This document shows positions 4,665 through 22,069 of a stretch of DNA of 64,000 nt, in pieces. Source of the DNA: Bradymonas sediminis (GTDB lineage Bacteria > Myxococcota_A > Bradymonadia > Bradymonadales > Bradymonadaceae); NCBI RefSeq assembly GCF_003258315.1, contig NZ_CP030032.1, positions 1,340,001 through 1,404,000 of the forward strand, in the 5' to 3' direction. The notes under the pieces were generated by a model. That model worked only from the letters and a program-made list of their open reading frames with translations. It did no database searches and was not told the origin of the DNA. Position 1 is the first letter of the stretch. Every line of letters starts with the position of its first letter. Position numbers and translations under genes: made by a program.

Positions 4665-6152
4665 ATGAAACGATCGGCTCTGAAGCGAAAATATATCTCA
4701 TTGCTCGGGGCTTTGCTGCTCGTGGCATCTGCGGCCGGCTGTGATTATAGCGGGGCCGACGATAAGCTGGCGGATGCAGGGCCGGACGCTGGTGTGTTGG
4801 ATACTGGCGGTCGCTCCGACGCAGCGGGTAGCGATGCGACCGGCAGCGATGCCACCGGCAGTGATGCGACGGGCAGTGATGCGACGGGCAGCGACGCGAC
4901 GGGCAGCGACGCGACGGGCAGCGATGCGACGGACGTGGTTGATGACGCGGATATAAGCGACACGGGGGATGCTAGAGATGCCGACACGGCGGACACGACG
5001 CCGGACCCGGTGGAAGACCCCTGCGAGAACCCCATCGCGCCGGGGCCGATTCACGATATAGATATTTCGGCGACGGTCTTTGTGGGGCCGGTCCCCGTGT
5101 CGGGCGCTCAGCGGCCAGTCGAAGTCGATAGCTACGCGGCGTATCAGAGCCAATTTGGCGTTGGTTCCACCGCCGGTCCGCCCGCGGACGCCGATGCGAT
5201 GGCCTGGTCAGTCTATCTCTACTTCGAGAACGGCGGCGAGCGGGCCTTTGTCGCACCAACGGCCTCGGATGTTCCGACATCAGTGGAGCTTGAGCGGCTC
5301 GCCGGGATTGGTGAACCCGCGATGATCGTGGTGCCGGGGCTCTCCGGGATCCAGGACGCCGGCGAGCGAGCGTTGGCCTATGGGCGCATGGGAACCTTTA
5401 TTCAGGGAGCGCAGGCCACTGATTTGTTGTGGATCAGCGACCTACCCGCAGGGTTAAGCGTCGAGGAGATTACCACCACACAGAGCTTCAACGCGCCGGT
5501 GACCATTCATAGTAACCGCGTCGCGCTATACCACCCGTGGCTTAAAGTCAGCACCGCTGGGGCGACGCCCCTGGAGGTCGCACCATCCGGAGCGGTCGCC
5601 GGGGTCATCGCCCGCCTGGGGCTCGAACGGGGTATTTGGACGGCGCCGGCGGGGCCAACCGCGACTTTTCAGAGCATCGATGGCTTCGCTCAGGCCCTCG
5701 ATAATAGCGAGATTAGTGATCTTCTATCTTTGAATATCAACGCGCTGCGCGTTTTGTCGGGCGCCCCGGTTATCTGGGGCGCGCGCACCCTTGAGCGCGA
5801 CGATAACCATATGAAATATGTGTCAGTGCGCCGGTTCGCCACTCTTATCGACGCGAGCATGCGCGCCGGGGTCCGCGATATTTTTTGGCGCGTCAACGAC
5901 GCGAGTCTCCGCCAGGAGTTGGAGGAGCGCATGGATGACTATATGAGCGGTCTCTTTCGAAGCGGCGCCTTTGAGGGGGCGAGCGCCGGGCAATCCTATT
6001 TTGTCCAGGACTTCGTCAACTCAACATCGATGCCCGATATTCAGGCGGGCAAGCTCACCTTCGAGTATGGCTTTGCGCCGATTCGGCCGGCTGAGTTTCA
6101 TCTGGGGCGCTTCGAGCGCACCGTTGGCTCCTGCTTGTCCGACAGCCCATGA
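4665..6152 (+). CDS. Lipoprotein carrying a contractile-tail sheath domain
   Basis: The protein (495 aa) begins with a lipoprotein signal (LLGALLLVASAAGC, lipid Cys 26, Asp at +2). A low-complexity linker with seven GSDAT repeats follows (residues 55-89), then many Asp/Ala/Thr residues to about 110. The remaining about 380 residues read as a phage-type tail sheath protein. SATVFVGPVPV matches the start of the sheath core. VYLYFENGGERAFVAP matches the usual 'FFENGG-RAYVVR' element, and RVALYHPWLKV with SGAVAGVIARLGLERGIWTAPAG matches the 'YPW-V…PPSG-VAGV-AR-D-ERGVWKAPA' block. NALRVLSGAPVIWGARTL (359-376), KYVSVRRF (from 384) and GASAGQSYFVQ (about 439) match the C-terminal sheath domain. Known sheath proteins are cytoplasmic and lack signal peptides; lipidation is the odd feature. 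No tube, baseplate, spike or ClpV-like gene lies nearby. The function on the cell surface or in the periplasm is unknown. Confidence 0.85.
   Translation: MKRSALKRKYISLLGALLLVASAAGCDYSGADDKLADAGPDAGVLDTGGRSDAAGSDATGSDATGSDATGSDATGSDATGSDATGSDATDVVDDADISDTGDARDADTADTTPDPVEDPCENPIAPGPIHDIDISATVFVGPVPVSGAQRPVEVDSYAAYQSQFGVGSTAGPPADADAMAWSVYLYFENGGERAFVAPTASDVPTSVELERLAGIGEPAMIVVPGLSGIQDAGERALAYGRMGTFIQGAQATDLLWISDLPAGLSVEEITTTQSFNAPVTIHSNRVALYHPWLKVSTAGATPLEVAPSGAVAGVIARLGLERGIWTAPAGPTATFQSIDGFAQALDNSEISDLLSLNINALRVLSGAPVIWGARTLERDDNHMKYVSVRRFATLIDASMRAGVRDIFWRVNDASLRQELEERMDDYMSGLFRSGAFEGASAGQSYFVQDFVNSTSMPDIQAGKLTFEYGFAPIRPAEFHLGRFERTVGSCLSDSP
4827..4931 (+). repeat. 15-bp coding tandem repeat (GSDAT x7)
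   Basis: Seven in-frame 15-bp units encode Gly-Ser-Asp-Ala-Thr inside the linker of the sheath-domain lipoprotein. Third positions vary (gat/gac, gcg/gcc, agc/agt), so the array is older than a fresh slippage event yet still prone to length change. It acts as a flexible acidic spacer between the lipid anchor and the folded domain. Confidence 0.9.
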
Positions 6153-7285: not shown

Positions 7286-8302
7286 ATGAAAGACTTTGAA
7301 TACAATATAGATATCGCCCCCTTTACTACTTTCGGGGTGCGGGCGAGAACGCAATATTTCGCGGCGTTTTCCTCCGTCGAAGCGCTACGCGCGCTGCTCA
7401 GCGATGTCGGTGAGCGAGAATTGCTCATCCTGGGCGGGGGCAGCAATATGCTCTTTGTGCGCGACTTCCAGGGGGTCACCCTGCGCAATTTGATCACCGG
7501 GATTGAGCGGGTTGACGAGGACAAAGACTCGGTCGTTTTAAATGTTGGCGCGGGGGAGAATTGGCATGAATTCGTGCTCTTCGCGATCGCACAGGGGCTG
7601 GGCGGCGTCGAGAATTTGTCGCTTATCCCGGGGAGCGTTGGGGCGAGTCCGATTCAGAATATCGGCGCCTATGGGGTCGAGATTAAGGACGTTTTTGAGT
7701 CGCTGGAGGCGGTCGAAATTGCCACGGGCGCCGCGCGCACTTTCGACCTGGATGCCTGCGATTTTGGGTATCGCGATAGTATTTTTAAGCGGGAGCTAAG
7801 GGGGAAATATGTCATAACCTCCGTGAGTTTTCGCTTATCGAAGGCGCCGGTGCTCAACACCAGTTATGGCACGATTGAGCAGGAACTGGCGGCGCGCCAG
7901 ATCGCGCAGCCGACGATTAAGAATGTGAGCGACGCGGTCATCGCGATTCGCCGCTCCAAGCTCCCGGACCCCGCCGAGATCGGCAACGGCGGCAGCTTTT
8001 TTAAGAACCCGATTATCCCGCACGCGCAATTCCTTGCGTTGAAGAAACGCTTTGAGGAGATGCCGTCTTATCCCGTCGATGAAGACTCGGTGAAGGTCCC
8101 CGCGGGTTGGTTGATCGACCAGGCGGGATGGAAGGGGAAGACCTTCGGGGCTTGCGGCGTGCACAAAAGGCAGGCGTTGGTCCTGGTGAATTATGGCGAC
8201 GCGACGGGGGCCGAGATCTATGCGTTATCCGAGCGAATTATCGACGATATTTTTGAGCGCTACGGGATTCGCCTGGAGCGGGAAGTCAATATGATCGGTT
8301 GA
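7286..8302 (+). CDS. murB: UDP-N-acetylenolpyruvoylglucosamine reductase
   Basis: MurB is the cytoplasmic FAD enzyme that reduces UDP-GlcNAc-enolpyruvate to UDP-MurNAc in peptidoglycan synthesis. At 338 residues it is the E. coli-like (type I) form. FAD-binding motifs are GGGSNMLF (50-57) and IPGSVGASPIQNIGAYG (114-130). The type I tyrosine loop is GYRDSIFK (161-168). The catalytic Ser is in GNGGSFFKNP (Ser237), and the Glu is near the C-terminal EREVNMIG (Glu332). AGWLIDQAGWKGKTFGACGVH is the usual C-terminal signature. The frame stays open upstream to 7103, but family homology begins at the ATG at 7286. There is no clear Shine-Dalgarno. It stands alone here, far from murA at 58 kb and from any visible mur cluster. 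Confidence 0.97.
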   Translation: MKDFEYNIDIAPFTTFGVRARTQYFAAFSSVEALRALLSDVGERELLILGGGSNMLFVRDFQGVTLRNLITGIERVDEDKDSVVLNVGAGENWHEFVLFAIAQGLGGVENLSLIPGSVGASPIQNIGAYGVEIKDVFESLEAVEIATGAARTFDLDACDFGYRDSIFKRELRGKYVITSVSFRLSKAPVLNTSYGTIEQELAARQIAQPTIKNVSDAVIAIRRSKLPDPAEIGNGGSFFKNPIIPHAQFLALKKRFEEMPSYPVDEDSVKVPAGWLIDQAGWKGKTFGACGVHKRQALVLVNYGDATGAEIYALSERIIDDIFERYGIRLEREVNMIG

Positions 8303-8324
8303 GGCGGGGCCGAAGCGAGTGGGT

Positions 8325-8352
8325 GCCCCCGACGACCGAAGTCGCCGGGGGC
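8325..8352. terminator. Hairpin between convergent murB and di-haem oxidoreductase
   Basis: GCCCCCGACGAC pairs with GTCGCCGGGGGC (one bulge) in the 55-bp gap between two convergent stops. It has no T-run on either side, so it could be an intrinsic terminator of poor quality or a pause site. Confidence 0.4.
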
Positions 8353-8357
8353 GGAGC

Positions 8358-9866
8358 CTAGAGCGAGCGTACGAATTCGAGCAGCGCCCGGCGCCCGTCA
8401 TCGTTGAGCGCCTCGACATAGCGGCGCGCCGGGTCGGCTTCGCCGCCGTGCCATAAGATCGCCTCTTCCAAGTTTTGGGCGCGCCCATCGTGCAGGAATC
8501 GCGCGTTTGGGTTGAGCGATTCGACTAGTCCCAATCCCCACAAAGGCGCGGTTCTCCACTCCCGCGCGCCGGCGTTTCCTTCGCCGGCGGGGTCGCTTAA
8601 ACCTTCGCCCATATCGTGGAGCAGCAGATCGGTGAACGGGTGCAAGATCTGCTCGGAGAGCAGCGGTCGGTCCGGCAGCGCGCGCGTGACCAACTTCGGG
8701 CGGTGGCAGCCGGTGCAACCTGCGGCGTCAAAGTGGCGCGCCCCGGCTTCGAGCGTCGCTCTGCCCGCGTGGCGCCTTACCGCCGGAACCCCGATATAGC
8801 GCTGGTATTCAACCAGGGCGGCGAGCCCCTGTTCGTCGACTTCGGGGGAGCCACCGCTTGGGCTTTGCAGGCAATCGTGCTGAGACGCGCTGCAATTTTC
8901 GGCCATGACTTCGGGTGAGGTGATGCCCATATCCTGGGCGAGCGCCATGGCGCTTTGTCCGCGCAGCGTGGGCTGCAGTGCTTTCCAACCGAAGCGGCCG
9001 AGGCGGCCGTCGTCGAGGATATTCGGGCGCCCCGAGATGCCGTCGCCGTCGGCGTCCTCGGGGTCGGCGGCCTCCAGGATGGTCGCGTCTGCGACGAGAT
9101 CCAATAAACCCAGACCGACCAGATGCGGCGACGCACGTCCGAGCGCGCGCGTGTCGGGGTGCAACGCGCCGTAGCTTGGGTGTGGCTCGATGGAGAAGCG
9201 GGGCGCGCCATGGTTGTTGTCGCTGCTGGTGGCGGTCGGGTACCAAGACACGTGCCCCTCGGCGGCAACACCGGCGATGCTTCGAGGCTGGAATTGCGGG
9301 CCGAAGACGGGATCGGGGAGTCTTCCCTGGTCGGTTTCGCGGACAAGACGAATCAACAACCCTGGGTGGACCTGGCCGTCGGGGCCAAGCGTCGCCGGGC
9401 GCCCCGACGATGGGTGGCATCCCGCGCAGGAAACCTCGTTAAAGTGAGGACCGAGTCCGTCGATGACGGGCCGCGAACTGGGCGCAGGCTCCCATTCGGC
9501 CACGAATAATTCGCGCCCCTGTGAGAATCGTAGTGTCTGCTCGAGCCCCAGGGTGTCCGCCAGCTCCATGAATCGCCACTGAGTCGAGTCGCTGGTTAAT
9601 GCGCCGCCGGTCTGCTCCACCGGTGGCAGTAGATGTTCGACCGATACCGGCGGCGTCGAGGTGTCGGAGCTATCCGAGCTCTCCCGAGTATCGCTGGCGT
9701 CGCCAGCATCCGGACGCGAAGTTGCGTCTGCGAGGTCGCTGGTTGTGTCAAAGTTGGCGTCCGTGGTCGACGCTGGCGCCGGCGCGTCCGAGCAACCTGC
9801 CCAGAGCGCCGCCGCGACCGCCGCCCACGCCAACCGCTGAAGGTGGTTGAGGTGGGTAGTGCTCAT
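8358..9866 (-). CDS. Di-haem oxidoreductase (DUF1111/DHOR) lipoprotein
   Basis: The 502-residue protein starts at the ATG at 9866, which overlaps the stop of the upstream RCC1 gene as ATGA (translational coupling). The lipobox ALWAGC puts lipid Cys at 25, followed by an Asp/Ser/Thr-rich linker. The body is the 'thiol oxidoreductase'/di-haem family related to MauG and cytochrome c peroxidases. The two covalent haem sites are CAGCH at about 146-150 and CTGCH at about 384-388. Conserved family phrases include FNEVSCAGCHPSSGRP, GRFGWKALQPTLRGQSA and FLHDGRAQNLEEAILWHGGEA near the C-terminus. The DHOR family is often iron-regulated and found beside imelysin-like lipoproteins. Here the operon has a Fur-like box (11839-11853), consistent with that, but the partner is an RCC1 protein. 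The substrate is unknown. Confidence 0.92.
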   Translation of the reverse strand: MSTTHLNHLQRLAWAAVAAALWAGCSDAPAPASTTDANFDTTSDLADATSRPDAGDASDTRESSDSSDTSTPPVSVEHLLPPVEQTGGALTSDSTQWRFMELADTLGLEQTLRFSQGRELFVAEWEPAPSSRPVIDGLGPHFNEVSCAGCHPSSGRPATLGPDGQVHPGLLIRLVRETDQGRLPDPVFGPQFQPRSIAGVAAEGHVSWYPTATSSDNNHGAPRFSIEPHPSYGALHPDTRALGRASPHLVGLGLLDLVADATILEAADPEDADGDGISGRPNILDDGRLGRFGWKALQPTLRGQSAMALAQDMGITSPEVMAENCSASQHDCLQSPSGGSPEVDEQGLAALVEYQRYIGVPAVRRHAGRATLEAGARHFDAAGCTGCHRPKLVTRALPDRPLLSEQILHPFTDLLLHDMGEGLSDPAGEGNAGAREWRTAPLWGLGLVESLNPNARFLHDGRAQNLEEAILWHGGEADPARRYVEALNDDGRRALLEFVRSL

Positions 9867-11749
9867 TCTGCGAACTCCACGAGCACTGGGATTCGGTAGC
9901 TCCACCGGTCAATCGAACTTTCGCCGGCGCCCAGTGAACCCTGAAAACTCCAGCCCCAGGCAAAGACGCGGCCATCGGCCCGAAGCGCCACTGAGTGCAG
10001 CGCGCCGACGGTGACGTCGACCAGGTTCTCGACGCCGAAGACAGGTTCGACCGGGCCTGTGAGGTCTTCTTCGGAGGGGATGCCCAGGTTGCCAAACCCG
10101 TTTTGCCCCCAGCCATAGACGCGGGCGTTGTCGCCGTACACGAAGCTCTGATTGGCCCCGGCGAGCACGCCGGTGACGGTCATATTCGGCGACAGCAGCG
10201 TTGGCTCAAGCACGTCGTCCTCGAAGCCGCCGATGCCCTCGGGGCCGACCTGGGCCGAGCGGTTGAGCCCCCATCCATAGAGCTGCCCGTCGGCGTTGAG
10301 CGCGAGCGCGTGGTCCTTGCCTGCGGCAATCTCGACGATGTCCGCCAGCGCGTCGATCTTGGTCGGTTGGCTGTGTGGGTCCCGGTCGCTGGTTCCCAGA
10401 CCGAGGTTCCCATCGGCGTTGTCGCCCCACGCGAATACTTCGCCGTCTTTTGTCAGGGCATAGGAAGCAGAGGATGAAGCGGTCATCGCGATGACCTCTT
10501 CGAGACCAATGACCTCGACGGGGGTGTCGCTCGTGGTGGTGGTGCCGTCGCCGAGTTGACCGTCGGCGTTGTCGCCGCAGGCGTAGGGTTTGCCCTGGTC
10601 GGTCAGCAATAGCGTGTGATCGTAGCCGCGCGCGATCGCGACGACGGTGTGCTCGAAGTCGACCTTTTCGGGGGCGTAGCGATGGGTCTCATCGAGGTCG
10701 CCGTCATTGGCCTCGCCCAGGCATAGCTGGCCGTCGGCGTTGTCCCCCCAAGCGTAGACCTCGCCGGCGGCGTTGAGCGCGAACGAGCTATTTTGGCTAA
10801 ACACGATGGAGATGACTTCGCCCGGGACCTCGATATGGTGTGCGCTGACCGGATGCGCGGGATCGGTGTCGCCGAGCGATGAGTCATACCCGAGGCCAAC
10901 CTGACCGCGGTTATTTCGGCCCCAGGCGTAGACTTCGGAGTCGAGCAGCACACCGCTATGCGCGCCGCCAGCGGCGGTCTGAGCGCCGAAATACAGCGCG
11001 TGCGATAACTCGGCCTGATTGCCCGCAGCGTCTGTCGCGGCGACCGTGATTGCGTTCGGTCCCGGCGCCAGGTCGACCATCGCGCTGAAGCGTCCATCCG
11101 CGCTGAGCGTAGCGGGCGCGGGGGTGTCCCCAACGCTCAGCGTCACGGACGCGACGCCAAGGTTGTCGGCTGCTTGGCCGGTGATCATGACCCGGCGAGC
11201 GAGCACTGAGCGGGCGTAATGCGGCGATAGTCCGCTTAAGGTTGGGGCCTCGGTGTCCTCGGCGCGGGTGATTGAGATGCGCGCTTCGCCGCGCTCACCA
11301 TTGTCGGCGATGACCTCAACCGAGATGTCGTTGGCGCCGACCAGAAGCGGGATAATCGCTTCGAGCTGATAGCCACTTGTCGTGCTCGTCAGGCTGACGT
11401 CTTCGACCGGGCTGTCGTTGCGCGACACATGGTGCTCGATGAGCGCGCCGTCGAACTCGATAGCCGCCTTCAGGGGGAACTCTTGGGCGTAGAGCATCGT
11501 TTCCTCAGGGGCGTCGATCGTGACCACCGGGGCATCCGCGGCGTCTTCGAGCGCGTCCGGCGCCTCCGTTGCGTCCGATGCGTCTTCGCGCGCGGCCGGG
11601 GGCTCCGCGGTGTCATGGCTTCCCGCATCATGCGCCTCGTGGTGTGCATCGTATTTGTCGGCATCAGCATCGCCGCCACAGCCTACCAATGACGCGCTCA
11701 GTGCCGCGACAAAGATCCATCGAAATACGTTCTTGTTCCATCTCATCAT
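9863..11749 (-). CDS. Seven-repeat RCC1 propeller lipoprotein
   Basis: The 628-residue lipoprotein starts at the ATG at 11749, chosen for the GGAGAG seven bases upstream. The lipobox is SASLVGC, with Cys 24. A Glu/Asp/Ala-rich linker runs to about residue 95. Next come two beta-sandwich-like segments, the second (DTEAPTLSGLSP…AATDAAGNQAELS) being of the bacterial Ig or cadherin-like 'DxxGN' type. Then seven RCC1/BNR-type repeats run to the end, recognisable by V-Y/F-A-W-G-x-N-x-x-G-x-L-G, for example EVYAWGDNADGQLCLG. Seven repeats would close one seven-bladed propeller. It overlaps the di-haem gene by four bases and sits just downstream of a palindromic Fur-like box, so I infer an iron-responsive surface or periplasmic binding partner of the haem protein. 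Bacterial RCC1 proteins have no single known role. Confidence 0.9.
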   Translation of the reverse strand: MMRWNKNVFRWIFVAALSASLVGCGGDADADKYDAHHEAHDAGSHDTAEPPAAREDASDATEAPDALEDAADAPVVTIDAPEETMLYAQEFPLKAAIEFDGALIEHHVSRNDSPVEDVSLTSTTSGYQLEAIIPLLVGANDISVEVIADNGERGEARISITRAEDTEAPTLSGLSPHYARSVLARRVMITGQAADNLGVASVTLSVGDTPAPATLSADGRFSAMVDLAPGPNAITVAATDAAGNQAELSHALYFGAQTAAGGAHSGVLLDSEVYAWGRNNRGQVGLGYDSSLGDTDPAHPVSAHHIEVPGEVISIVFSQNSSFALNAAGEVYAWGDNADGQLCLGEANDGDLDETHRYAPEKVDFEHTVVAIARGYDHTLLLTDQGKPYACGDNADGQLGDGTTTTSDTPVEVIGLEEVIAMTASSSASYALTKDGEVFAWGDNADGNLGLGTSDRDPHSQPTKIDALADIVEIAAGKDHALALNADGQLYGWGLNRSAQVGPEGIGGFEDDVLEPTLLSPNMTVTGVLAGANQSFVYGDNARVYGWGQNGFGNLGIPSEEDLTGPVEPVFGVENLVDVTVGALHSVALRADGRVFAWGWSFQGSLGAGESSIDRWSYRIPVLVEFAE

Positions 11750-11808
11750 CGACTCTCCGTGGGTCGTTATTGTGTTCGAATACATTACGCAAAACTTGCG
11801 TGGGGCGG

Positions 11809-11837
11809 CTCATATACGCGTCTGATTGGAAATGCAA
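11809..11837 (-). promoter_or_regulatory. Putative sigma-70 promoter of the RCC1/di-haem operon
   Basis: On the minus strand a TTGCAT -35 element (11832-11837) and a TATGAG -10 element (11809-11814) are 17 bp apart. The -35 abuts the Fur-like palindrome. The predicted transcript would start near 11802 and leave a leader of about 50 nt before the RCC1 start. CATATA read one register over gives an alternative -10. Confidence 0.45.
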
Positions 11838-11838
11838 T

Positions 11839-11853
11839 TGATAATCATTATCA
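11839..11853. promoter_or_regulatory. Fur box (7-1-7 palindrome)
   Basis: The 15-mer TGATAATCATTATCA is an exact 7-1-7 inverted repeat identical to the core of the Fur consensus. It is extended to a 21-bp near-palindrome at 11836-11856. It lies between the divergent RCC1 and DUF924 genes. On the minus strand it abuts a TTGCAT (11832-11837) / TATGAG (11809-11814) promoter with a 17-bp spacer, where bound Fur would block RNA polymerase. The iron-control reading is inference from sequence match and position. Confidence 0.75.
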
Positions 11854-11987
11854 ATTAGGTTCCATCTCCGCGGTGCAGTCAGCCGCTGGGAGGTTTCGAA
11901 TCTTGGGCGGGCGTTGTAATGGTGGGGACGGGGCTCGGGCTCGCGAGTCATCCCCGACGAGTGTTCGGTGGAAATCGGAGTAGGATC

Positions 11988-12593
11988 ATGCAGGCAAAAA
12001 CAATCAATGAAGTTCTGGATTTCTGGTTCGGCGAGCTCGATCCTCAGGGGTCCGCGAGCCCCGAGATTATCGAGAGTTGGCGCCAGAAGGTGGCGGCGTT
12101 TGACCAGGAGATTCGCCGGCGTTTTGAGGGGCTCTACGAGGCCATTGTGGCCGGCGAGCGCGAGGATTGGTTGGAGACGCTCGAAGGGGTGATTGCGTAT
12201 GTGGTCGTCATCGACCAGCTCTCGCGCAATATGTATCGGGGCAGCGCGAAGATGTATGCCTCGGACGCGCAGGCGCTCGGCGTGGCGCTCGACGCCATTG
12301 ACCGCGGCCTCGACAAGCAGGCCGTGTTCGCCCACCGTAATTTTCTCTATATGCCGCTGATGCATAGCGAGGAGCTGGAGCTGCAAGATCGCTGCGTGGC
12401 GCTGTACCAGGCCTGGCATGAGGAGGTCGAAGGCGCCCAAAAAGAAGAGATCGCAAAGCGCATTGGCTTTGCGAATCGACACCGAGACGTGGTCGCCCAA
12501 TTCGGGCGTTTTCCCCACCGAAACGCCATCCTCGGGCGAGAATCAACGGCCGAAGAGGTGGAGTTTTTGAAGTCGCCGAGCGCCTGGTTTTAG
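11988..12593 (+). CDS. DUF924 family protein
   Basis: The 201-residue protein matches the DUF924 (YPO0702-like) family, a TPR-like all-alpha fold of unknown biochemical role. Visible family hallmarks are VLDFWFGELDP near the N-terminus, VVIDQLSRNMYRGSAKMYASD in the middle, FLYMPLMHSEELELQDRCV, and GRFPHRNAILGRESTAEEVEFL at the C-terminus. The start at 11988 is preceded by GGAG six to nine bases away; homology begins there, although the frame is open further upstream. The Fur-like box lies about 135 bp upstream, so the gene could share iron control with the divergent operon, but it has no obvious promoter of its own next to the box. A strong hairpin terminator follows directly (12597-12632). 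Confidence 0.93.
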   Translation: MQAKTINEVLDFWFGELDPQGSASPEIIESWRQKVAAFDQEIRRRFEGLYEAIVAGEREDWLETLEGVIAYVVVIDQLSRNMYRGSAKMYASDAQALGVALDAIDRGLDKQAVFAHRNFLYMPLMHSEELELQDRCVALYQAWHEEVEGAQKEEIAKRIGFANRHRDVVAQFGRFPHRNAILGRESTAEEVEFLKSPSAWF

Positions 12594-12902: not shown

Positions 12903-15236
12903 TCAGTCCGCCGCCGGTGCTTCGGCAGCCATGTCGAAATAGACGGTGCTTCCCTGCAGTTCGGCGTGAGTAAAATACGGGCCGTCGTGGGCTTGGCCGT
13001 TCACATTCACGCCGACGACATAGGGGGTCTCCGGGCCTGCGCCAGGGGCCTCAATGCGCAGGGTTTTACCGTCGCCCAGGTCGACTTCGATCTCGGGGAA
13101 GAGCGGCGAGCCGAGCATATAGGTGTCGTGGCCGGCGACCGGCGAGAAGCCGAGAGCGCTGAAGATATACCAGGCCGACAGGGTGCCGCCGTCGTCATTG
13201 CCGACCAGCCCGTCCGGGCCGCTGCCGTAGGCGGTGGATTGGATGAGGCGCACCCATTTGCCGACCTCGGCGGGGCGGTCGGTGAAGTTGAATAGGTAGG
13301 GCGCGCCGATATCGTGCTCGTTGCCATGCCAATATTTGCCATCGGGGAGCAGCGGTAGATAGTCGTCGGTGTTGATGCCTGCGTCGTCGAAGAATTTGTG
13401 GAGTTGCTCGTAGAGCGCGCTTGGGCCGCCGAAGGCCTCGCTGAGCTGGGTGGGGTGCCAGATCGGGTAGAATCGCCAATGCCAGGCGTTGCCCTCGGTG
13501 TAGTGGTCTTCGCTAAAAGCGCCGTGGCTCATCATCACGACGAAGCTGCCATCGGCGTTTCGCGGGGTCATGAATTTCGTCGTCTCCTCAAATGTATTCT
13601 TCCAATTCTCCGAACGCTCACGCAGCGCGCTCGCCTCGGCGCGGCCGAGGTGATCGGCTAAATTGGCGAGCGCCCAATCGTTCCATGCGTATTCCAGGGT
13701 GCGGGAGACGGATTGGCTAAATTCGTCGTCGGGCACGTAGCCAAGCTCGAGGTAGCGAGCGACCGCGCGCCGGCCGGTGAAGATCGAGCCGGGGGGCGTT
13801 TGTTGGGTCGCTGTGATGAGTAGGGCGTCGAATGCCTCCTGGTAGTCGACGCCGTCGATTCCCTTGAGCGCGCTTTCGGCGAAGAGTTGGTCGGCGGGCG
13901 TCCCCAGCATGCTATTGGTATAGGTCTGGAGCGCCGGCCAGCGCGGGATAAAGCCGGTGGCGCGCTTCATCGCGAGCAATGAGTTCAGGCTATCGCGCTG
14001 CAGGTCCGGGTCGATGAGCGTGAGCAATGGGTGGAGGGTGCGGAACGTGTCCCACAGCGACAGATCTGAATAATATTTGGAGCCGTTGACCTGGTGAATC
14101 TGGTCGTCCATGCCGCGGTAGCGCCCGTCCGCCCCGTCGAGTCGGGTCGGCATGCGCCACACATTATAGAGGGCGGTGTAGAAGATGCGCAGGTCGTCTT
14201 CGGCGCCGCCGCGCACGCGCACGCGCCCGAGCTTGTCGAGCCAGGCGGCTTTGGCCTCTTCGCGCACGGCTTCAAAGGTCTTGGCGTCGAGCTCTTCGCT
14301 TCGGTGCAGCCGCGCCTGGTCGAGGTCGACGAAGGAGAGGCCGACGCGCAGCTCAACCTGCTCGGCGTCGCTGAAGTCGAGCACCGCGCCGCCTTCGACT
14401 CCCTGAGCGCTCGACGCGCCAGCGTTCACGCCGCTGTCATCCCAGGTGGAGACCGCGGTGGGGGCGGAGTCGCTGGTCGCCGAAAAGTAGAGGGTGAACG
14501 GGCCGCTTCGGGTCGCGAAATCACCGCCAAAGACCACATGACCCTCGATGGTCTGGCCGTCGACCGCCATCGTCACCTCGGTTTCGGCCGAAGTAACGAT
14601 GCTCGAGGCCGGGTTGAAGAGCAGGGTGATGCCGCCGGCGTCGCTGCGATAGCGATGAAAGCCCGCGCGAAGTGAGGCGGTAAGTTCGACGGTGACGCCG
14701 GCGTCGGGGAGGTGAACTGAATAATAGCCCGGAGCCGCCTGCTCGCTGTCTTTGTCGAGCGCGGTATATTGCGCCCAGGGCTTGGCAGCGTCGACGGTCG
14801 CGACCGGCAAAACGCTCAGGTTTCCAAGCCCCGGTGCGCCGGTGCCCACCAGGTGAAGATGGGTAAATCCGCGCACCTCCGGGTCATCATAATGATAGCC
14901 GCTGAAGTGGGATTGGGGGTAGTATTTGCCATCTTTCGAGGTGTCTGGGCCGAGCTTTACCAGTCCGTTGGGGACCTGGGCGGTCGGGGTGAGCGCGGCA
15001 TAGCCGAAGCCCAATCCTCCCGTGCCGATAAATGGGTCGACCAACGAAAAGGCCCGCTCGGCGTCGACCCACTGCGGCTTTGCGTCGAGCGTATCAGCGA
15101 CATCAACGGCGTCGGCGGTCGTGTCCGGTGAGGCGTCCGATATATCGGCCGCGGGCGTTGAGTTTTCGTCGCTGGCGCATCCCGCGAATACCGCGAGCGC
15201 GAAGAGGCTAAAAAGGAAGATGGTCTTTGGGTTCAT
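12903..15236 (-). CDS. GH92 family alpha-mannosidase lipoprotein
   Basis: The 777-residue protein is a calcium-dependent exo-alpha-mannosidase of glycoside hydrolase family 92, which trims alpha-mannosyl linkages of glycoproteins or yeast-type glycans. The signal ends in ALAVFAGC (Cys 20), followed by an Asp/Ala-rich linker. The N-terminal beta-sandwich begins VDPFIGTGG and includes GFTHLHLVGTGAPGLG. The catalytic alpha/alpha-barrel includes the general-acid region YTEGNAWHWRFYPIWH, GNEHDIGAPYLFNF, and the aspartate-rich GNDDGGTLSAWYIFSALGF, where the base residues lie. It is full length for the family. No SusC/SusD pair or other glycan gene is nearby, so it acts as a solitary surface enzyme, perhaps scavenging prey or environmental glycans (inference). 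Confidence 0.95.
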   Translation of the reverse strand: MNPKTIFLFSLFALAVFAGCASDENSTPAADISDASPDTTADAVDVADTLDAKPQWVDAERAFSLVDPFIGTGGLGFGYAALTPTAQVPNGLVKLGPDTSKDGKYYPQSHFSGYHYDDPEVRGFTHLHLVGTGAPGLGNLSVLPVATVDAAKPWAQYTALDKDSEQAAPGYYSVHLPDAGVTVELTASLRAGFHRYRSDAGGITLLFNPASSIVTSAETEVTMAVDGQTIEGHVVFGGDFATRSGPFTLYFSATSDSAPTAVSTWDDSGVNAGASSAQGVEGGAVLDFSDAEQVELRVGLSFVDLDQARLHRSEELDAKTFEAVREEAKAAWLDKLGRVRVRGGAEDDLRIFYTALYNVWRMPTRLDGADGRYRGMDDQIHQVNGSKYYSDLSLWDTFRTLHPLLTLIDPDLQRDSLNSLLAMKRATGFIPRWPALQTYTNSMLGTPADQLFAESALKGIDGVDYQEAFDALLITATQQTPPGSIFTGRRAVARYLELGYVPDDEFSQSVSRTLEYAWNDWALANLADHLGRAEASALRERSENWKNTFEETTKFMTPRNADGSFVVMMSHGAFSEDHYTEGNAWHWRFYPIWHPTQLSEAFGGPSALYEQLHKFFDDAGINTDDYLPLLPDGKYWHGNEHDIGAPYLFNFTDRPAEVGKWVRLIQSTAYGSGPDGLVGNDDGGTLSAWYIFSALGFSPVAGHDTYMLGSPLFPEIEVDLGDGKTLRIEAPGAGPETPYVVGVNVNGQAHDGPYFTHAELQGSTVYFDMAAEAPAAD

Positions 15237-16941: not shown

Positions 16942-19074
16942 TCAGTAGCCGTCGAGGATGTCGACGAGTTTCTGGCGGTTGATGGGTTTGAGAAGATAGT
17001 GGTCGGCGCCCAGGGCATAGCCCCGCGCGCTCTCGGCGACCATCGTCACCATGATGACCGGGATGTCGCGCAGCTCCGAGTTCTCCTTGAGCCGAGACAG
17101 CAGGCTCCAGCCATCCATCGAGGGCATCATCACGTCGAGGGTGATGATATCGGGGCGCAGTTGTTCGGCCAGCAGCAAGCCCTCCGAGCCGCTGGCCGCG
17201 GTCGCCACCGCGAAGCCTTCGCGCTCCAAGATCCGGCGCAACAGATCGCGCATGGTCGGGTCGTCGTCGATCACCAAAACGGTGTCACCGGCGGCGGTCG
17301 TGTTGGTCAGTAGTTGGGGCGCGGGGGCGTCGAACTCAGCGGCGGACAGACGGCCCGAATCGCCGTCGGTGCCTTCGGCCGATGTCTCCAGATTGGCGCG
17401 AAGCCGCACGCGAAAGAGGCTGCCCTGGCCGAGGGTGGACTCGACCTCGACCTGGCCGCCCAGCAGCGCGGCGAAGTGCCGGGTGATGGTAAGCCCGAGG
17501 CCGGTGCCGCCGTATTGGCGCGTGGTCGAGTTGTCGGCCTGAGTGAACGCCTCGAAGATCTTCTCCAATTGTTCCTCGCTCATCCCGACGCCGGAATCTT
17601 CGACCTCAAAGACGATATGGGTGTAGTCCTCGTCGGGCTTCGCGCGGATGTCGATACGCCCTTGGCGCGTGAATTTGCAGGCGTTGCTCAGGATATTGAA
17701 TAGAATCTGGCGGACCTTCGTGATGTCCGAGTTCATGAAGCCCAGGCCGGCGTCGAGCTCGGCGGTGACGGTATTGTTGGACTTTTTGGCGAGCGGCGCG
17801 ATGGTGCTGCGGATATCGTCGATGAGCGAGGTGACCTCGAAGACTTCCATATGGATATTCATCTTTCCGGCCTCGATCTTCGACAGGTCGAGGATATCGT
17901 TGATCAGGGCGAGCAGGTGGGTGCCGGCGGTGCGAATGCGCGTGAGGTCGGGGAGAAACCCGGTGACGAGGGCGATATTGTCGACCTCGTCTTCTCTCAT
18001 CAGCTCGATTTCTTCTGTGATCATCTCGGAATAACCGATGACCGCGTTGAGCGGAGTGCGCAGCTCGTGGCTCATATTGGCCAGGAACGCGCTCTTGGCC
18101 CGGCTGGCCTCGATCGCCTCATCACGCGCGCTTCGCAGGGCCTCGTTGGCGACCTTTCGCTCGGTGATATCGCGAAGCACCATCACGATGCGCGCGTCGT
18201 GGCGCCCGAAGGCAATCTCCAGCGGGACCGGTTCGCCGTCGCATCGCAGGCCGCTGAATTCTAGGGAATCCCCAATATTTTGCGCGTTTCCTCGCATCGC
18301 GTCCACGAGGGCCTGGTCTTCGAAGTCAGCGATCAGCTCTCGGATATTTTGACCGATAATATCCTGTCGCTCGCCGCCGAAGATGCGGGCGGTGGCGCGG
18401 TTGGCGCGAATGATCTGTCCGTCCGTGTCAATTGTTATAATCGCGTCGGGTGCGGTCTCGAGCACGGCGCTGGTCTCGGTCTCTTTTTGGCGCAGGGCGT
18501 CGGTCAGCCAGATTTGCACATTATTTTTGAGGTGCAGGATCGCGAAGGTCGTCACTGCGGTCCCAACCAGGGCGACACCGAATTGCATATGCGCGACCTC
18601 GATGCTGTCGATGGGCGGGAAGAATTGAATCTCCAATAGGGTAATGAGCAAAATGCCCAAGAAGGTGACCACCACCACCGCCAGCCAGACAAGGGCTGTC
18701 TTGTTTTCCTGAAAGAGCGACGCCAATAGGGGCAATACGGGGAGCCAGAGGATGGGCGCCGCATAGAGCCCGCCGCCCACGTAGATGGTCCACAATAGCA
18801 CCGCATAGATGGGGGCCACGATGCAGTGCCCAGTCAGGCTCAGGTTGCCGGTTGCGCGAAGCACGAACGGGGCGCAGGCCACCAAGGCGGTGCCGATCAA
18901 CAGGCCAATGGTCGACGCATACCACTCGGTGATGATGCCCAAGCCCGAGGCTACGAGGGCCCAGAAGATCGCGAAGAAGGTAATCATCACGCCGATGCGA
19001 GCTCGCCGCACCTCGACCCCGGTGGGGTCTGGAAAGTTGTCGGGGATGAAATAATCGACGGTTCGAGCAAACAT
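16942..19074 (-). CDS. Hybrid sensor histidine kinase (6TM-PAS-HisKA-HATPase-REC)
   Basis: The start at 19074 is chosen because GAGG lies seven bases upstream and the paralogs begin here (F-A-R-x-x-DYFIPD). The 710 residues contain a short cytoplasmic start, six membrane helices (about 24-180), a coiled linker, a PAS domain (about 205-310), and HisKA with the phospho-accepting His336 in [18 protein letters not shown]. HATPase_c follows ([25 protein letters not shown]), then one receiver domain with Asp647 in TLDVMMPSMDGWSLL. It is an inner-membrane signal-transduction protein; the stimulus and the output partner are unknown, since no DNA-binding regulator is adjacent. It lies tandem with the 19262-21790 paralog but lacks that gene's second receiver, whose debris follows the stop codon. 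Confidence 0.95.
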   Translation of the reverse strand: MFARTVDYFIPDNFPDPTGVEVRRARIGVMITFFAIFWALVASGLGIITEWYASTIGLLIGTALVACAPFVLRATGNLSLTGHCIVAPIYAVLLWTIYVGGGLYAAPILWLPVLPLLASLFQENKTALVWLAVVVVTFLGILLITLLEIQFFPPIDSIEVAHMQFGVALVGTAVTTFAILHLKNNVQIWLTDALRQKETETSAVLETAPDAIITIDTDGQIIRANRATARIFGGERQDIIGQNIRELIADFEDQALVDAMRGNAQNIGDSLEFSGLRCDGEPVPLEIAFGRHDARIVMVLRDITERKVANEALRSARDEAIEASRAKSAFLANMSHELRTPLNAVIGYSEMITEEIELMREDEVDNIALVTGFLPDLTRIRTAGTHLLALINDILDLSKIEAGKMNIHMEVFEVTSLIDDIRSTIAPLAKKSNNTVTAELDAGLGFMNSDITKVRQILFNILSNACKFTRQGRIDIRAKPDEDYTHIVFEVEDSGVGMSEEQLEKIFEAFTQADNSTTRQYGGTGLGLTITRHFAALLGGQVEVESTLGQGSLFRVRLRANLETSAEGTDGDSGRLSAAEFDAPAPQLLTNTTAAGDTVLVIDDDPTMRDLLRRILEREGFAVATAASGSEGLLLAEQLRPDIITLDVMMPSMDGWSLLSRLKENSELRDIPVIMVTMVAESARGYALGADHYLLKPINRQKLVDILDGY

Positions 19075-19261
19075 GACAGGTCCTCGATAGCAATAATCCC
19101 TGGCGCTCAACACCTTCGAGGGATGAATTGGCTCGGTGGAATGCCCCCTTATTGTGGGCTTTGATTGAGCTTCTATACCGGAGAAAATTAAAAACCGCAA
19201 TTTAGCGCTTGGCGACAGTATGATTTCCGAACAGAGATAAACGGCGGTCGCCTGTGCCTGG

Positions 19262-21790
19262 TTAGCCTCCTAACTTCGCACTCGCATATTTTCGCACCTG
19301 AGAGAGCAATTCCTCCAGGGGATTTCCGCCGCCCGCGCGCCCGCCCTTGGCGAGCACCTCGTTGGCGTCGCGCTGCAGCTGGATCTTCTCATCGTCGGTC
19401 AACTCCTTGGCGGTGACGACGATGACCGGCGTGTTCTGAAATGCCTCGATTTCGCGAAAGCGGCGCAGGAACTCGAAGCCGTCCATCTGAGGCATCATGA
19501 GGTCGAGCAGGACCAGGTCGGGGGCGAAGTCATCGAGCAGGTCCAGGGCGAGTTGGCCGTTCTCGGCCTCGCGGATCTCCCAGCCGCTGTCGTCCAGGGT
19601 GCGCCGGACCATGGTGCGATTGGGCTCGTCGTCCTCGACCAGCAGGATATTTTTGAAGTCCGCCGAGCTGTTGCGGTACTTGTTCAGGATGCCGACGAGC
19701 TTTTTGCGGTTGATGGGTTTGAGCAAATAGTGGTCGGCGCCCAGGGCGAAGCCGCGCTCGCTCTCGGCGACCATCGTCACCATGATGACCGGAATGTCCT
19801 GGAGATCGGCGTTTTCTTTTAGCCGCGACAGCAGGCTCCAGCCGTCCATCTGCGGCATCATCACGTCGAGGGTGATGACGTCGGGGCGCAGATGTTCGGC
19901 CAGCAAGAGGCCCTCGGAGCCGCTGGCCGCGGTGGCCACGGCGAAGCCCTCGCGCTCCAGGATCCGGCGCAGCAGGTCGCGCATGGTGGGGTCATCGTCG
20001 ATGACCAGCACGGTGTCGGCGCCGGTATTTGGGGTGGCTTCTGCGGCGCCATTGGCGCCGGCGTTGTGGGTCTCCGAGGCGTCATGATGCGTGTCGTCGG
20101 CTTCTTCGCGCTCCATATTTGTGCGCAGGCGCACCTTAAACAGGCTTCCCTCGCCGAGGGTTGACTCAACCTCGACCTCGCCGCCGAGCAGGGCGCAGAA
20201 GTGGCGCGTGATGGTCAGCCCGAGGCCGGTGCCGCCGAATTGGCGAGTGGTCGAGCCGTCGGCCTGGATGAAGGCGTCGAAGATCTTGCCGAGCTGCTCC
20301 GGGCTCATGCCGACGCCGGTGTCCTCGACCTCGAAGATCAGGTGTTCGTAGTCGGTGTCGGGCGTCACGCGGATGGTGATGTCGCCGTCTTTGGTGAATT
20401 TGCAGGCGTTGCTCAGCAGGTTGAAGAGGATCTGGCGGACCTTGGTGGCGTCCGAATTCATATAGCCCAGGCCCGGGTCGAGCTCGACGTTCAGGGTGTT
20501 ATTCGACTTGGTGGCCAGCGGCGCGATGGTGCTGCGGATATCCTCGATGAGCGCCGCGACCTCGAAGACCTCAAGGTGCAGGTTCATCTTGCCGGCCTCG
20601 ATCTTCGACAGGTCGAGGATGTCGTTGATGAGGGCGAGCAGGTGGGTGCCGGCGGTGCGGATGCGCATGAGGTCGGGGAGGAAGCCGGTGACGGCCTCGA
20701 TATTGTCGACCTGGTCTTCGCGCATGACCTCGATCTCTTCTTTGATCATCTCCGAATAGCCGATGACCGCGTTGAGCGGCGTGCGCAATTCATGGCTCAT
20801 ATTGGCCAAAAACGCGCTCTTCGCCCGGCTCGCCTCGATGGCCTGGTCGCGCGCGCTGCGAAGCGCCTCGTTGGCGACCTTTCGCTCGGTGATATCGCGA
20901 AGCACCAGCACGATGCGCGCGTCAAGCCGGCCGAAGGCGATCTCCAGGGGAATCGAGTTCCCCTTGCTGCATTGCCCGTCAAATTCGACCGACTCGCCCT
21001 GGGCGTGGGACTCGACGGCGCGCACCAGGGCCTGGGCCTCAAGGTCGGCGATGAGGGCGCGGATATTCTGGCCAACGATCTCGTCGCGGTCGCAGCTAAA
21101 GATGCGGGCGGTCGCGCGGTTTGCGCGCAGGATCTGGCCATCGGTGTCGACGGTGATGATCGCGTCTGGCGCGGTCTCGAGCACCGCGCTGGTCTCGGCT
21201 TCTTTTTGGCGAAGGGCGTCGGTCAGCCAGATCTGGACGTTATTCTTGAGGTGGAGGATGGCGAAGGTGGTCACCCCCATGCCGATGAGCGCGATTCCGA
21301 ATTGCATGTCGGAGGCCCGGGTTTTCGGGTTGTCCGGGAAGGGAAAGCCAGTCAAGTTGGCGGCTATCAGGGCGATAAAGGTGACGACGACCAACCCAAG
21401 CCATACGACCGCGGAGCGGTTCTTCTGAAAGAGGGAGGCCAACAGCGGCATGATCGGCAGCCAGAGAGTCGGGGCAGCGTAGAGCCCTCCGTTGAGGTAG
21501 ATCGTCCACAAAAGAACCGCATAGATCGGCGCCACCGTGAAGTGACCGGTCAGGCTCAAGTTGCCGGTTGCGCGCAGCACAAAGGGCGCGCACCCTACCA
21601 GGAGCATCCCAACCAACAACCCCAAGACCGACTCATAGGCCCCGGAAAGCACCCCCAACCCCGCAGCAATCATCGCCCAGAAGATGGTCACGAACGTGAT
21701 CATGACCCCGATGCGCGCCCGTCGCACCTCGACTCCCGTGGGATCGGCGAGGTCTTGGGGGATAAAATATTCGGTCAATCGAGCGATCAT
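19262..21790 (-). CDS. Hybrid sensor histidine kinase with two receiver domains
   Basis: The ATG at 21790 has GAGG nine bases upstream; the frame also allows an in-frame TTG at 21802. The 842 residues comprise six membrane helices (about 24-180), PAS, HisKA with His333, HATPase_c ([24 protein letters not shown]), a His/Asn/Ala-rich linker, receiver 1 with Asp642 ([15 protein letters not shown]) and receiver 2 with Asp763 ([15 protein letters not shown]). The tail [12 protein letters not shown] is shared with the 25660-28182 paralog. Two receivers on one kinase suggest an internal phosphorelay or two outputs. It lies 187 bp upstream of the truncated paralog in the same direction, as expected from tandem duplication. 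Confidence 0.96.
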
Positions 21791-22069
21791 TCGATGCCTC
21801 AAAACAGGGGTAGGCGGAAGTCCGTAGGGTATAGATAGGACAGGATCGAATTCAGCTCAGGCATATCCCAACCCTAGTTTAGTTTCGCTGTGGAAGGTTG
21901 GTAATATCAGGGAAGGCGGGGTTTGTGCAAATGCGGGGGAGGGGGGGGGACCAGCCTGATCGACTCAAGGGGCGCGGAGTTTGAAGTGCAATCATGAATA
22001 AATTACTTCTTGCTGCGTATTTGAAGGGGAACGGACATCGTTTCCGTTCCTCGTGTAAGGAGTTGAACT

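Follow-up and report, generated by a model that had tools for sequence, protein, structure and literature searches.

The window analysed here is a stretch of 64,000 nt from Bradymonas sediminis (NZ_CP030032.1), whose genome consists of one contig of 5,045,683 bases; coordinates are positions in this window unless given as genome positions. On its minus strand we found a gene for an RCC1 lipoprotein (9863..11749, 628 aa), followed by a gene for a di-haem oxidoreductase of the DUF1111 family (DHOR; 8358..9866, 502 aa, likewise a predicted lipoprotein). Stop and start of the two genes overlap in an ATGA at 9863..9866 (minus strand), confirming the two-gene operon that an earlier sequence-only reading of this DNA had described. 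The RCC1 gene begins with an ATG preceded by GGAG and lies 89 nt downstream of an exact 7-1-7 Fur box, TGATAATCATTATCA, at 11839-11853. This box, too, had been claimed before; it proved to be the core of a longer operator, a perfect 10-1-10 palindrome (AATTGATAATGATTATCAATT) at 11836..11856, and it matches exactly the 7-1-7 inverted repeat TGATAATNATTATCA typical of Fur regulons. The plausible promoter proposed next to it found no such backing, as a scan of positions 8200-12000 gave no match to the sigma-70 consensus, a kind of scan that is weak in this phylum.

The exact 15-mer of the Fur box is present at only two places in the whole genome. Its second occurrence heads an operon for DUF6607, a periplasmic binding protein, a permease and an ATPase, an ATP-binding cassette system of the haem-uptake type. 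With the degenerate motif TGAWAATSATTWTCA and up to two mismatches we obtained 21 sites in the genome versus 0 for the reversed control. Among the next-best sites, near-exact boxes head an operon of HmuY and a TonB receptor and the genome's own porin-imelysin-DHOR operon (genome positions ~4,888,660-4,892,870, box at 4,892,747). The remaining near matches that we inspected in the genome head no recognisable iron genes, so the motif alone is no proof of Fur control. As candidates for Fur itself the genome encodes three PF01475 proteins above the cut-off. PerR boxes read TTATAATNATTATAA; a PerR operator was rejected because the site ends in TGA and TCA, as Fur boxes do.

The motif recurs in front of related genes. 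We examined the 160 nt upstream of 19 orthologues, and in 15 of them the top-scoring 7-1-7 match is better than in shuffled sequences (p<=0.05); additional Myxococcota loci carry upstream sites such as TGAAAACGATTTTCA. Genes for TonB receptors, an imelysin, TonB and isochorismate synthase lie behind the motif TGCRWATNATTMTCA in Thalassolituus, Oleispira and Myxococcus, and the RCC1 gene is among the few sites of this motif; compared with the reversed control the excess is clear in Myxococcus (11 vs 0) and moderate in Thalassolituus (12 vs 3). In two Lujinxingia-type genomes the RCC1-DHOR pair and a porin-imelysin-DHOR operon run divergently, and each of the two sides has a Fur-like site. Judged by identity of the motif, its rarity, its company in the genome and its recurrence upstream of orthologues, Fur control of the RCC1-DHOR operon is well supported.

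Both operons are lost in a Lujinxingia congener (locus L056, 4015-6179), which retains two DHOR C-terminal remnants between conserved flanks; RCC1, porin and imelysin genes are not present at this locus. In one Lujinxingia-type genome (L054, from 14836) in-frame tandem repeats (KFSPMGRNLPACA) were noted just 3' of the DHOR gene.

The partnership of the two genes is constant. GTDB genomes scanned with an alignment built from five RCC1-DHOR pairs yielded 16 loci at E <=1e-86, followed by a steep drop to RCC1 proteins of the generic kind, none of them better than 1e-50; later searches added two gammaproteobacteria and eight other Myxococcota. At least 29 species carry this RCC1 subfamily, and a DHOR gene lies near it in all of them (29/29), as the next gene in 24 species and with one further RCC1 gene in between in 5. 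The sequence-only reading had named absence of the pairing from all relatives as the result that would speak against it, and this survey turned out in its favour. Carriers among the Myxococcota include Bradymonadales-type relatives such as Lujinxingia vulgaris (L099), Myxococcus, Hyalangium, Citreicoccus and members of other families, while the gammaproteobacterial carriers are marine, e.g. Oleispira, Thalassolituus and Marinagarivorans. An RCC1 locus without DHOR in Myxococcus dinghuensis was rejected as an exception and assigned to an extra copy, because the same genome holds a complete pair elsewhere. RCC1 genes are plentiful in the genome of B. sediminis (74 repeat matches); the genome has three DHOR genes, and apart from the window gene no RCC1 gene is found close to one of them. 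Pairing with DHOR is confined to this RCC1 subfamily. A tree of 55 DHORs places the RCC1-linked enzymes in two well-supported clades, one of Myxococcus, Hyalangium and Citreicoccus and one of Bradymonadales together with gammaproteobacteria. From this tree a single origin of the RCC1-linked DHORs is possible, and the position of one Bradymonadales member (locus L063) among the gammaproteobacteria suggests transfer.

Some Myxococcota operons (L257-L261) have two different RCC1 genes in front of the DHOR gene, the second of which lacks the WxY tail described below. The third DHOR of B. sediminis (L050, 5040-8012) is located beside Rieske-type and porin-like proteins, as is the case in genome G007 (L053), a further partner context for DHOR.

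The RCC1 protein starts with a lipobox (LVGC, Cys24) that is invariant in 19 orthologues, followed by an Asp-rich tether predicted to be disordered, an Ig-like region and seven RCC1 repeats. Pfam finds seven PF00415 stretches (203.5 bits), so that the lipoprotein with exactly seven RCC1 repeats anticipated from the sequence was indeed found. The structure model (pLDDT, predicted local distance difference test, 87) shows these repeats as a seven-bladed RCC1 propeller (9866..10984, minus strand, residues ~256-628). Its closest fold is UVR8 (Z ~50, 346 residues, 1.8 A), and the seven-bladed RCC1 fold is common to the propellers of UVR8, RCC1 and BLIP-II. Unlike these three, the window protein is an exported bacterial lipoprotein that has an Ig-like region at its N-terminus and ends in a WGW...WxY tail, and in contrast to UVR8 and RCC1 neither a Ran-related nor a light-sensing role is expected for it. 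A search of plasmids with the RCC1 protein gave no match.

The C-terminal tail distinguishes the subfamily. The signature WGWSFQGSLGAGESSIDRWSY (9896..9958, minus strand; in short form WGW...GSLG...WxY) contains W598, W600, W616 and Y618; across 19 aligned subfamily sequences the three tryptophans are invariant and the tyrosine is nearly so. The pattern WGW...G[ST][LF]...Wx[YFQ] is present in 19/19 subfamily members and 0/111 other RCC1 proteins. This count is a firmer test than the comparison of single columns, for which 10 near-full-length outgroup proteins were available and fewer at the C-terminus: W600, W616 and Y618 are absent from those alignable at these columns (8, 1 and 1). The signature is a candidate site of oxidative modification.

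The DHOR matches PF06537 with 221 bits (cut-off 22) and carries a lipobox-like AGC (Cys25), as do most of its relatives. Both of its CxxCH haem sites (C147-H151 at 9414..9428 and C384-H388 at 8703..8717, minus strand) are invariant in 18 relatives, and 10 of 18 aligned RCC1-DHOR pairs have 4-nt gene overlaps. No close relative of the enzyme has a solved structure; among di-haem proteins it matches best the bacterial cytochrome c peroxidases (bCCP) 1iqc and 3o5c (E 0.002-0.013), and comparing its profile with that of a single bCCP gave no significant match (probability 1.3). Aligned to the bCCP structures, W294 of the DHOR falls on a Trp that in bCCP sits between the haems. As a residue separating RCC1-linked from other DHORs this Trp was dropped because most of the others carry it too (25/36). 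The Met of an HDMG motif is doubtful as a haem ligand since relatives have Leu at this position.

Two kinds of known systems resemble the pair. DUF1111 enzymes are almost always found beside imelysin-type iron-uptake proteins, as in the Fur operons of the type PA4370-PA4373 of Pseudomonas aeruginosa (PMC3143127), which share with the window operon the DUF1111 enzyme, Fur-type control and an exported lipoprotein partner. In contrast to these, the DUF1111 enzyme of the window operon is partnered by an RCC1 propeller, and the operon comprises RCC1 and DHOR only, with no porin, imelysin (PF09375) or HTTM protein. The methanotroph copper systems CorA/CorB and MopE/SACCP combine a surface protein under metal repression with a di-haem protein encoded on the same transcript; the latter is thought to turn a Trp of its partner into kynurenine (PMC3912023). 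The likeness lies in a Trp-rich surface partner, a di-haem c-type protein and the suggested oxidation of the partner. The window pair differs in its iron-type instead of copper control, in its enzyme, which is PF06537 and not CCP_MauG (PF03150), and in the fold of the partner (an RCC1 propeller, not MopE/CorA), a distinction drawn from Pfam and fold searches, which returned RCC1 only. Because there is no imelysin in the operon and the enzyme is not PF03150, the pair was filed under neither system.

The sequence-only reading had regarded the arrangement as not known to be described. In the literature searched we found no description of an RCC1-DHOR module and no paper with both DUF1111 and RCC1, which largely bears this out; an operon of this kind has, however, been mentioned in passing. 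In Leptospira interrogans LIMLP_07150 (RCC1) and LIMLP_07145 (a two-haem 'thiol oxidoreductase') form a predicted bicistronic operon, and with 1 mM H2O2 they rise by a log2 fold change of ~5 and ~2.2, respectively (PMC7567364). The gene order is that of the window pair, a likeness that is by description only; unlike the window pair, the Leptospira operon was reported with five annotated RCC1 domains and without an iron link or family description. A Leptospira rcc1 gene also rises in host-adapted cells along with haem-uptake genes (PMC3953431), and it is uncertain whether this is the same gene, as the locus tag is listed differently elsewhere.

We consider it very likely that the RCC1-DHOR pair is a Fur-controlled iron module; the sequence comparisons give good support both to its link with iron and to the constancy of the partnership. 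The constant pairing points to a so far undescribed module for the acquisition of iron. Beyond this, we favour, with a probability of roughly 60%, a Fur-repressed surface module in which the RCC1 propeller holds the usual place of imelysin beside DUF1111 and the DHOR is its dedicated redox enzyme. Under such a mechanism Fur would leave the palindrome when iron is scarce, and the operon is probably switched on under iron shortage. Lipoprotein and DHOR would then be made together through translational coupling, both exported and mostly lipid-anchored. With its lipobox and long tether the RCC1 protein is presumably located at the surface, where the propeller would hold a ligand or partner, with iron or haem as the putative ligand, in the position that imelysin occupies in the usual porin-imelysin-DUF1111 operons. 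The DHOR, by peroxide-type chemistry at its haem pair, would most likely oxidise either the propeller, at its conserved C-terminal Trp/Tyr cluster, or whatever source of iron or haem the propeller holds. The evidence is consistent with a module that binds iron or haem at the surface as well as with an RCC1 protein that is processed by the enzyme. We judge it reasonably probable that the DHOR acts on or through the RCC1 protein, and, after the model of CorA/CorB, it may oxidise the propeller or its ligand. A more specific version, in which the DHOR uses H2O2 to oxidise or cross-link W598, W600, W616 and Y618 and so creates a protein-derived iron- or haem-binding site on the beta-propeller, is speculative and rather unlikely. 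If true, the Trp/Tyr modification would be an iron-side equivalent of CorA/CorB and MauG, with a partner protein whose fold is unrelated.

Several observations weigh against the surface module as we propose it. The upstream sites of the four orthologues outside the 15 above, all gammaproteobacterial, are weak against the strict consensus; these four have in common a TTGCG...TTMTCATT element that aligns at a single position. In the Oleispira genome TGCRWATNATTMTCA hardly exceeds its control (13 vs 11). The conserved aromatics of the RCC1 tail may have a structural role in closing the propeller, and on the side of the enzyme the Trp aligned with the inter-haem Trp of bCCP is not specific to RCC1-linked DHORs, while a DHOR model from a five-row alignment was unusable (pLDDT 34.8). 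Finally, the Leptospira pair is reported as H2O2-induced, not as iron-regulated.

The strongest competitor keeps the iron link and shifts the substrate: the DHOR would have iron or haem itself as its substrate, which it would reduce, oxidise or release, while an unmodified propeller would only capture a ferric complex, haem or a haem protein. An action on iron or haem has earlier been proposed for the EfeB-like enzymes beside imelysin, and both the near-constant association of DUF1111 with imelysin-type uptake proteins (PMC3143127) and the Fur-like box of the genome's own imelysin-DHOR operon fit this explanation. It leaves, however, the subfamily-specific Trp/Tyr signature unexplained, and we regard it as a serious but less probable option. 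A role in peroxide defence appears unlikely. Here the DHOR would be a di-haem peroxidase, located at the surface or in the periplasm, clearing H2O2 during iron starvation, when catalase is scarce, and RCC1 a scaffold or docking partner for an electron donor. The weak similarity of the DHOR to the peroxidases 1iqc and 3o5c points in this direction, as does the rise of the Leptospira genes with H2O2, to the extent that a likeness by description allows. H2O2 can also inactivate Fur, and therefore induction by H2O2 does not discriminate. Against peroxide defence, the operator is of the Fur and not the PerR type, haem and iron uptake genes share its motif, and a plain peroxidase needs no constant propeller partner. 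That the two are merely co-regulated exported proteins with separate functions, kept side by side by chance or by their one Fur-type promoter region in a genome rich in RCC1 genes, is highly improbable given a pairing in every carrier species across several lineages, with overlapping genes in many, and the absence of DHOR partners from other RCC1 proteins.

DUF1111 enzymes belong to many Fur-regulated operons and have mostly been studied together with imelysin. The RCC1 protein, as a second constant partner that is unrelated to imelysin and bears a family-specific Trp/Tyr signature, offers an approach to the function of these enzymes. The pair further hints at a function for a subfamily of bacterial RCC1 proteins whose automatic annotation refers to chromosome condensation, and the module may explain the RCC1 operon known from the Leptospira stress data.

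Apart from this operon, three further features of the window were noted. A predicted lipoprotein at 4665-6152 (plus strand) combines a tandem GSDAT-rich linker with phage tail-sheath domains (PF04984, PF17482), which are odd behind a lipoprotein signal. At 12903-15236 (minus strand) lies a glycosyl hydrolase of the GH92 family, again with a lipoprotein signal, and at 16942-21802 (minus strand) a tandem of two hybrid histidine kinases, paralogues that resemble each other closely in sequence.

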